From an uncultured Spartobacteria bacterium (lineage in GTDB: Bacteria; Verrucomicrobiota; Verrucomicrobiia; Chthoniobacterales; Chthoniobacteraceae): 64,000 nt of DNA. This document shows positions 42,441 to 45,251 of this stretch, piece by piece. The notes under the pieces were generated by a model. It searched no databases, had not been told where the DNA came from, and saw only the letters and a list, made by a program, of their open reading frames with translations. The position numbers were made by a program, and so were the translations under genes. Each line of letters opens with the position of its first letter. The first letter of the stretch is position 1. The stretch spans positions 1-64,000 of the forward strand of contig CAIYUV010000006.1 of assembly GCA_903929475.1 (NCBI GenBank), written 5' to 3'.

Positions 42441-43040
42441 ATGATCGCACTCATTGACTACGGCTCCGGCAACGTCCGCAGCGTCTTCAACGCACTCACC
42501 TCCCTCGGCGCGGACGTCCGGCTCACAGCAGACGCGGGCGAAATTTCGCGCGCCGAGAAAATCGTCCTCCCCGGCGTCGGTGCGTTTGGCGATTGCGTGC
42601 ACGGATTGCAGGAACGCGACTTGTGGGGGCCGATGCAGGACAGCCTCGCCAGCGGTCGGCCCTTCCTCGGCATCTGCGTCGGCTACCAGATGCTCTTCGA
42701 GCAAAGCGAAGAGACCCCCGGCGTTCGTGGGTTTGGATTTTTTCCCGGCAAAGTGAAACGCTTCGCCACCCCCGGCTTAAAAATCCCGCAAATCGGCTGG
42801 AACAACCTCAACCTCACCCCGCACCCGCTCTGGGCCGGCCTCCCTGCGCAGCCCCACGTTTATTTCGTCCACAGCTACTACTGCGAACCGACCGACCCCA
42901 CCACCGTCATCGCCCGCACCACCTACGGCCAGACCTTCGCCGCCGCCGCCGCGCGAGGCAGCGTCGCCGGTGTCCAATTTCACCCCGAAAAAAGCCAGAC
43001 CGTCGGCCTCGGCATCTTGAAAAACTTCCTCAACACCTAA
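42441..43040 (+). CDS. hisH: imidazole glycerol phosphate synthase subunit HisH
   Basis: IALIDYGSGNVRSV; PFLGICVGYQMLFEQSEE; GVQFHPEKSQ. Confidence 0.97.
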   Translation: MIALIDYGSGNVRSVFNALTSLGADVRLTADAGEISRAEKIVLPGVGAFGDCVHGLQERDLWGPMQDSLASGRPFLGICVGYQMLFEQSEETPGVRGFGFFPGKVKRFATPGLKIPQIGWNNLNLTPHPLWAGLPAQPHVYFVHSYYCEPTDPTTVIARTTYGQTFAAAAARGSVAGVQFHPEKSQTVGLGILKNFLNT

Positions 43041-43045
43041 ACACC

Positions 43046-43765
43046 GTGCTCCTATTTCCCGCGATTGACCTCATGTCCGGCCAAGTCGTCCGCCTCCAAC
43101 AAGGCCGCGCCGACCAAAAAACCATCTACTCCAGCGACCCTGCCGCCTTCGCGCGAAAATGGGAAACCGAAGGCGGCGACTGGCTCCACCTCGTGGACCT
43201 CGACGCCTCCTTCTCCGGCCAGCAGAGCAACCTCGCCTCCGTCCGCGCCATCACCAGCGCCGTCAAAATCCCCTGCGAACTCGGCGGCGGCATCCGCACC
43301 CCCGAAGCCATCGAACGCGCCCTCGAAGCAGGCGTCACCCGCGTCATCCTCGGCACCAAAGCCGCCGAATCCCTCGACTTCGTCGCCGAAATGGCCACCC
43401 GGTTTGGCCGCGACAAAATCGCCGTCGGCATCGACGCCAAAAACGGTATCGTCTCCGTCAAAGGCTGGACACACGAAACCGGCCAGAGCGCCCTCGACCT
43501 CGCCATCTCCGCCGTCCACGCCGGCGCAGGCACCATCATCTACACCGACATCGCCACCGACGGCATGTTAATGGGCCCCAACTTCGCCGAAACCGAACGC
43601 GTCCACAACGCCATCCACCCCTTCGGCGGCCAGCTCATCGCCAGCGGCGGCGTCGGCACCGCAGCCCACGTCACCCGCCTCCGTGAAATCCCCGGCCTCT
43701 ACGGCTGCATCATCGGCAAAGCCCTCTACGACGGCGCCGTCACGCTGCAAGAATGCACCGCGTAA
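43046..43765 (+). CDS. hisA: phosphoribosylformimino-5-aminoimidazole carboxamide ribotide isomerase (GTG start)
   Basis: LLFPAIDLMSGQVVRLQQGR; CELGGGIRTPEAIERAL; TDIATDGMLMGPN. Confidence 0.95.
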   Translation: MLLFPAIDLMSGQVVRLQQGRADQKTIYSSDPAAFARKWETEGGDWLHLVDLDASFSGQQSNLASVRAITSAVKIPCELGGGIRTPEAIERALEAGVTRVILGTKAAESLDFVAEMATRFGRDKIAVGIDAKNGIVSVKGWTHETGQSALDLAISAVHAGAGTIIYTDIATDGMLMGPNFAETERVHNAIHPFGGQLIASGGVGTAAHVTRLREIPGLYGCIIGKALYDGAVTLQECTA

Positions 43766-43811: not shown

Positions 43812-44795
43812 ATGAAAGCTCTCTATTTTGACTGCATCTCTGGCATCAGCGGCGATATGACCGTCGGCGCACTTCTCGACCTCGGCGTGAAACCCAGCGC
43901 GCTGGAGTGGGAATTGAGCAAACTGAACCTCGGCGATTTCCACATGCACTATGATCGCGCGAAACGGAAGGAGATCGAGGGTGTGAAGTTCGACATCCAC
44001 GGCGGCGCGACGCACGGGGAGGATTGCGGGCATGAACACGGGCACTCGCACGAGGAGAAGCACGAGTGCTGCGGCCACGGTGAACATTCCCATGGCAGCG
44101 AAAAACACGAGCACACGCACACGCACGAACATTCGCACAGCGGCGAGTCGCATTCGCATGAACACTCCCACGAGCATGAACATGAGGACGGCCACGATTG
44201 CTGCGGGCACAAGCACGAAGAGCACGCGCACGAGCATGGCTGCTGCGACGAGGAGCACGGGCATCATCACCACCACGAGGACTCGCGCACCTACGCGCAA
44301 ATCCGCGAGATCATCGAGCATAGCGAGCTGTCCGCTTTCGTGAAGAAGCACGCCGTCGGCATTTTTCACCGCATCGCCGTGGCTGAGGGAAAGATCCACG
44401 GGCAGCCGCCTGAGAGCGTTCATTTCCACGAAGTGGGCGCGTTCGATTCCATCGCGGACATCGTGCTTTCATGCGTGGGCATCGAGGCGCTGGGCGTGGA
44501 GAAAGTGTATGTTTCCCGACTGCACGACGGTCGCGGAACGGTCGAGTGCGCGCACGGGACATTCCCCGTGCCTGCGCCTGCGACGCTGGAGATTCTGAAG
44601 GGCATCCCGCTCGGGCAGATTGATGAACCGCACGAACTCATCACGCCCACCGGCGCTGCGATCGCGGCGGAGTTCGCTGTGAGCTTTGGCGACATGCCTG
44701 CGATGAAGATCGAGCGCATCGGCTACGGTCTCGGCACGCGTGAACTCGCCGCCCGCCCGAATGTGCTGCGTGCAGTGCTCGGCGAACTGGCGTAA
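43812..44795 (+). CDS. larC1: LarC N-terminal part (nickel-pincer cofactor biosynthesis) with long His-rich insertion
   Basis: MKALYFDCISGISGDMTVGALLDLG; VHFHEVGAFDSIADIV; His-rich 43998..44283; in-frame TAA at 44793-44795. Confidence 0.9.
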   Translation: MKALYFDCISGISGDMTVGALLDLGVKPSALEWELSKLNLGDFHMHYDRAKRKEIEGVKFDIHGGATHGEDCGHEHGHSHEEKHECCGHGEHSHGSEKHEHTHTHEHSHSGESHSHEHSHEHEHEDGHDCCGHKHEEHAHEHGCCDEEHGHHHHHEDSRTYAQIREIIEHSELSAFVKKHAVGIFHRIAVAEGKIHGQPPESVHFHEVGAFDSIADIVLSCVGIEALGVEKVYVSRLHDGRGTVECAHGTFPVPAPATLEILKGIPLGQIDEPHELITPTGAAIAAEFAVSFGDMPAMKIERIGYGLGTRELAARPNVLRAVLGELA

Positions 44796-44807
44796 TTTTT
44801 CGCAGCC

Positions 44808-45251
44808 ATGAGCTACGAAACGGACACGGTCACCAAGCTCGAAACGAATCTCGACGATCTCTCGCCGGAGATCACGGGCGCGGTGATGGCGCAACTGTTC
44901 GCCGCCGGTGCGCTCGATGTGTGGCTCACGCCGATCCAGATGAAAAAGAATCGCCCCGGCGTGATGCTCTCCGTGCTCTGCGAGGAATCCACCGTGGCCG
45001 CGCTGACCGATCTTATTTTCGCCGAGACGAGCGCGTTTGGTCTGCGCGTGGAGAAGGTCGTGCGGCTGAAACTCTCCCGCCGCTTTGCGCAAGTGAGCAC
45101 GGAGTTTGGCGAGGTGACGGTGAAGCTGGGATTGAAAGGTGAGCGCGTGGTGCAGGTCGCGCCGGAGTTCGAGAGCTGCCGTGCCGTCGCGGAAAAATCG
45201 GGCGTGCCCCTGCGCGCCGTGTATGCGGCGGCGATTGCGGCGCGGAGGTAG
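44808..45251 (+). CDS. larC2: LarC C-terminal part
   Basis: TVTKLETNLDDLSPEITGAVMAQLFAAGALDVWLTPIQMKKNRPGVMLSVLC; same reading frame as larC1. Confidence 0.9.
   Translation: MSYETDTVTKLETNLDDLSPEITGAVMAQLFAAGALDVWLTPIQMKKNRPGVMLSVLCEESTVAALTDLIFAETSAFGLRVEKVVRLKLSRRFAQVSTEFGEVTVKLGLKGERVVQVAPEFESCRAVAEKSGVPLRAVYAAAIAARR

Follow-up and report, generated by a model that had tools for sequence, protein, structure and literature searches.

We find that the larC locus of this Spartobacteria genome bears a genuine gene fission that is conserved and looks functional; its details are new and of use to work on LarC, although the phenomenon is of an ordinary kind. With a probability of about 0.9, larC was split at its interdomain linker, and the resulting LarC1 and LarC2 would be separate chains that act together as a nickel insertase. 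LarC carries out the CTP-dependent insertion of nickel into the pincer cofactor (PMC11796402).

The larC locus and its predicted products

The window, meaning the whole 64,000-nucleotide stretch analyzed, carries both parts of larC behind a run of histidine biosynthesis genes:

42441..43040, + strand: hisH, within the hisB-hisH-hisA run upstream of larC1
43046..43765, + strand: hisA, with a GTG start, directly upstream of larC1
43812..44795, + strand: larC1, N-terminal LarC domain, 327 aa (PF01969, TIGR00299)
44793..44807, + strand: junction between larC1 and larC2, TAA plus the 12-nt gap TTTTTCGCAGCC
44808..45251, + strand: larC2, C-terminal LarC domain, 147 aa (PF01969, NF052512)

larC1 starts with ATG at 43812 and stops with TAA at 44793-44795, after which the gap codons TTT TTC GCA GCC lead to the ATG of larC2 itself at 44808; larC2 stops with TAG at 45249-45251. 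The first-pass annotation had placed the two genes in one reading frame, separated by a single TAA, and on re-reading all of its coordinates were correct. The partner genes looked for alongside LarC are all in the same genome, with larB (C90), larE (C268) and two larA-like genes (C129, C83) found elsewhere in it.

The larC1 open reading frame matches PF01969 over positions 1-234 (295.5 bits) and that of larC2 over positions 240-375 (175.4 bits). Against the NCBIfam models, LarC1 scores 221 bits for TIGR00299 (cut-off 90), and LarC2, the CTP-binding part, scores 152.8 bits for NF052512 (cut-off 50). By sequence, the predicted products are complementary parts of one complete LarC that is cut at the linker. 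Single-chain LarC, as in Moorella thermoacetica and Synechocystis (PDB 12BI; PF01969), likewise has both domains complete and the conserved residues kept, but joins them by a short linker, whereas in the window the place of the linker is taken by a stop codon, a gap and an additional ATG, which would give two polypeptides. In an alignment to full-length LarC (12BI), the window LarC1 extends up to residue 255 and LarC2 begins at residue 268, which places the stop in a linker of about 12 residues.

Structural models agree with a cut between domains. In the predicted LarC1 model, a single residue lies between the last strand (residues 318-326) and the stop, while LarC2 modeled alone reached a pLDDT of 95.6 and has the same fold as the crystal structure 6BWO (TM 0.89). 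Because LarC2 folds alone in these predictions and LarC1 is complete at its last strand, they favor two subunits. LarC2 also retains the invariant residues common to fused homologues. The stand-alone LarC2 structures 6BWO, 6BWQ and 6BWR match the window LarC2 in fold and length; 6BWO is described as the LarC C-terminal domain, that is, an isolated domain, whereas the free LarC2 of the window is a predicted natural product. An archaeal stand-alone relative is represented by 3C19 (MK0293). LarC1 carries a His-rich insert at about residues 67-154 (44010-44276), which is His/Cys-rich and predicted to be disordered; comparable His-rich stretches occur in other LarC proteins of the Chthoniobacteraceae.

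Split and fused larC across the family

We compared 40 genomes of the host family (f1, Chthoniobacteraceae, Verrucomicrobiota) and found larC in 32, fused in 5 (genera g3, g4 and g7) and split in 27 (g1, g2, g5, g6 and g8). The larC1 stop of the split genes may be TAA, TAG or TGA. hisA adjoins larC in 22 of 28 split loci, and the fused orthologues of g3 and g4 sit behind hisA as the window larC does; since this neighbor is common to both forms, they occupy the same locus by descent. On the protein tree the fused genera fall between two split clades, with modest support.

Two genomes of other species whose LarC2 is 96.5-98% identical (G152 and G005) have an identical TAA and an identical 12-nt gap, and the isolate genome of Chthoniobacter flavus Ellin428 (NZ_ABVL01000003.1, G136) has TAA, 3 nt and ATG. 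Comparing related genomes had been proposed as a check on the junction, and the recurrence of the stop shows that the TAA is real rather than a slip of assembly. In close pairs, dN/dS is about 0.01-0.18 for LarC1 and mostly 0.01-0.23 for LarC2, although ratios of 0.41 and 0.49 were obtained for two LarC2 pairs that differ by few changes. Purifying selection thus acts on both halves in most of these pairs, which argues against a decayed gene.

The fused orthologues that share the family and the hisA-larC setting might raise the suspicion of an error in sequencing or assembly, or of a gene in decay after a recent nonsense mutation. We regard this as extremely unlikely, given the junctions repeated in two other species and echoed in the C. 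flavus isolate, the low dN/dS of both halves and the presence of the split throughout five genera. The first-pass annotation had paired uninterrupted genes in relatives with assembly error as grounds for doubting the TAA; such relatives exist in g3, g4 and g7, but they reflect a true difference between fused and split genes, not an error.

The relative frame of the two genes proved variable: among the 27 split genomes, 16 have larC2 in the frame of larC1 and 11 have it in another frame. Close relatives of the window locus carry the pair in all three relative frames, so the shared frame in the window is incidental; with a prior of 1/3, it carries no signal by itself. When frame is mapped as a label on the protein tree, at least 7-8 changes are needed, and six pairs of close relatives are mixed. 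In the clearest of these pairs, the TAA is followed by TTTTTCACCC... in L030, which is in frame, and by TTTTCACCC... in L044, which has T4 rather than the T5 of L030 and is out of frame. The start of LarC2 is constant by comparison: it is ATG in 28 of 28 split genes, namely those of the 27 family members and that of G046 from a different family, and YETDTV or a similar motif usually comes within the next few residues. Met is found in 0 of 20 fused linkers. A varying frame beside a constant ATG means that a separate start has been maintained and frame continuity has not.

A mild excess of in-frame pairs persists after near-identical genomes are collapsed (13/23, against an expected 1/3; nominal p about 0.02, with relatedness ignored). 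This excess fits descent from an in-frame nonsense event and is not fully explained.

The probable start of larC2 and the rejected routes to a joined product

The absence of an obvious Shine-Dalgarno sequence before the larC2 ATG had been pointed out earlier, and indeed none is present at the window junction. Yet of the 46 starts of long ORFs in the window, just 2 have an SD-like 4-mer, compared to 12% of random positions (the starts were picked mechanically), and a survey found some Verrucomicrobia to be SD-scarce (PMC10783764). A missing Shine-Dalgarno sequence is therefore the norm here and carries no weight as evidence. CC stands directly before 10 of the 46 ORF starts in the window, compared to about 7% of ATGs in general. 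Across the split genomes, larC1 and larC2 have the layout of a coupled pair, with the constant ATG described above and a gap of -4 to 65 nt; in G124 they overlap by ATGA (gap -4). With 12 nt from stop to ATG in the window, coupling or reinitiation is the simplest route and probably accounts for larC2 translation.

Readthrough of the TAA could instead yield a functional full-length LarC, alone or alongside two short products. The frame is open across the window junction and the family shows its mild in-frame excess, but fusion by readthrough is impossible in the 11 out-of-frame family members (12 when an independently split gene from another family is counted), and the frame flips between sister species. 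TAA followed by T, as in the window, is not a leaky stop context; RNA structure around the larC1 stop did not exceed chance (fold z-score 0.00), and no Rfam match was found at the window junction. With frame continuity not conserved and neither a leaky context nor an RNA structure in place, we judge readthrough to be very unlikely. A narrower version, in which the in-frame members make a small amount of full-length LarC by readthrough as a functional third isoform, has a similarly slim chance of being right; if true, it would account for the mild in-frame excess.

Programmed frameshifting or slippage, as in Lactobacillaceae, could also join the parts. Production of LarC as one polypeptide in Lactobacillus is attributed to a frameshift, and work on L. 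plantarum reportedly places its emphasis on full-length LarC; our literature search for LarC with frameshifting found nothing on point. The larC1 and larC2 genes of L. plantarum and L. paracasei W56 bear the same names and are cut at the same domain junction of the same protein. In W56 they lie in different, overlapping frames with A10 before the larC1 stop: larC1 ends GAAAAAAAAAACTAA and the larC2 frame is open underneath for 58 nt, as expected for slippage. In contrast, the window larC2 has an ATG of its own behind the larC1 stop and lies in the same frame as larC1, so that a single shift would destroy the fusion, and no slippery run was found before the larC1 stop. The out-of-frame overlap and slippery run of the Lactobacillus type are thus missing from the window, and the probability that frameshifting operates here is close to nil. 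larC on one L. plantarum plasmid (L177, NZ_CP018325.1) is a single ORF, unlike the two-frame arrangement of W56.

Both models of a joined product were rejected for the window larC on the basis of frame variation.

Splits beyond the family and a probable two-part LarC

Of 80 named larC loci drawn from many phyla, 69 carry the fused gene, which makes this the common state of larC. Splits nevertheless occur elsewhere. In family f4, G046 has a split larC and G013, of the same genus, a fused one, which makes this an independent split in another family. The clostridial loci L154 (Eubacteriales) and L172 (Neoanaerotignum), from unrelated genomes, resemble the window in having an in-frame stop, a short gap (3 nt, against 12 nt in the window) and a separate ATG. 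They differ in having TGA where the window has TAA, and in a GAGGA that precedes the larC2 ATG by about 7 nt, a standard ribosome-binding arrangement, where the window has no SD. The clostridial split is of separate origin from that of the Chthoniobacteraceae. Apparent splits elsewhere in the phylum that lie at or near contig ends (G214, G354, G372 and G561) were left out of the counts.

Several further loci were noted. In a second, AT-rich larC copy (L086, G510:C316, about 2195-2215), the frame changes between larC1 and larC2 and A10 lies at the junction; this Lactobacillus-like arrangement may reflect genuine slippage, faulty assembly or a contig from a contaminant. The larC of L084 (G064:C34) is interrupted, extending over three frames with a TAG in addition, and is a pseudogene or a product of poor assembly. 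In L132 (Brevibacillus migulae), a stop closes the LarC1 domain and no LarC2 follows directly; the closest LarC2-like match lies about 1.1 kb off in another frame. Three genomes of family f4, genus g12 (G003, G039 and G052), matched the LarC profile only over its first ~100 positions, in open frames of 222-404 residues, and possibly encode a different LarC-like protein.

In G220 (family f34, same phylum), larC1 and larC2 are unlinked in the interiors of different large contigs. Its larC1 is inside a 121-kb contig with an unrelated reading frame downstream of it, and its larC2, with an ATG of its own, is inside a 219-kb contig. In this genome (L081 and L089), larC2 begins at the end of another reading frame.

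That the G220 genes are unlinked shows that the halves can be inherited apart, and LarC2 might be made while only one half serves NPN synthesis and the other has a different role. We give this little chance, as 26 of the 27 split family genomes have larC1 next to larC2 on one contig (in the remaining one, G092, larC2 is cut off by the contig end) and LarC2 keeps the invariant residues of its fused homologues. Three routes had been offered at the outset for the window locus. The out-of-frame relatives contradict readthrough as the way to a full-length LarC, and reinitiation is plausible as the way larC2 would be started. Two separate subunits are strongly supported by the unconserved frame, the constant ATG, the ATGA overlap of G124 and the unlinked genes of G220.

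In the two-subunit arrangement, a gene fission would have divided larC at the flexible interdomain linker, and the adjacent cistrons would yield LarC1 and LarC2 as independently folding polypeptides. Ribosomes terminating at larC1 would initiate at the nearby larC2 ATG by coupling or reinitiation. LarC1 and LarC2 would then cooperate, non-covalently or in sequence, as a CTP-dependent nickel insertase, completing the nickel-pincer nucleotide cofactor for LarA-type enzymes; judging from the genes, their association and joint activity are most likely. The shared frame in the window would be a leftover of the split or a coincidence arising after it.

LarC has so far been studied as one polypeptide. 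Its natural division across a bacterial family, and the unlinked genes of one more distant genome, suggest that the covalent link between LarC1 and LarC2 is dispensable. Automatic annotation can miscall such split loci as frameshifted genes or pseudogenes. The Chthoniobacteraceae offer a natural system for asking how the two halves of LarC meet.
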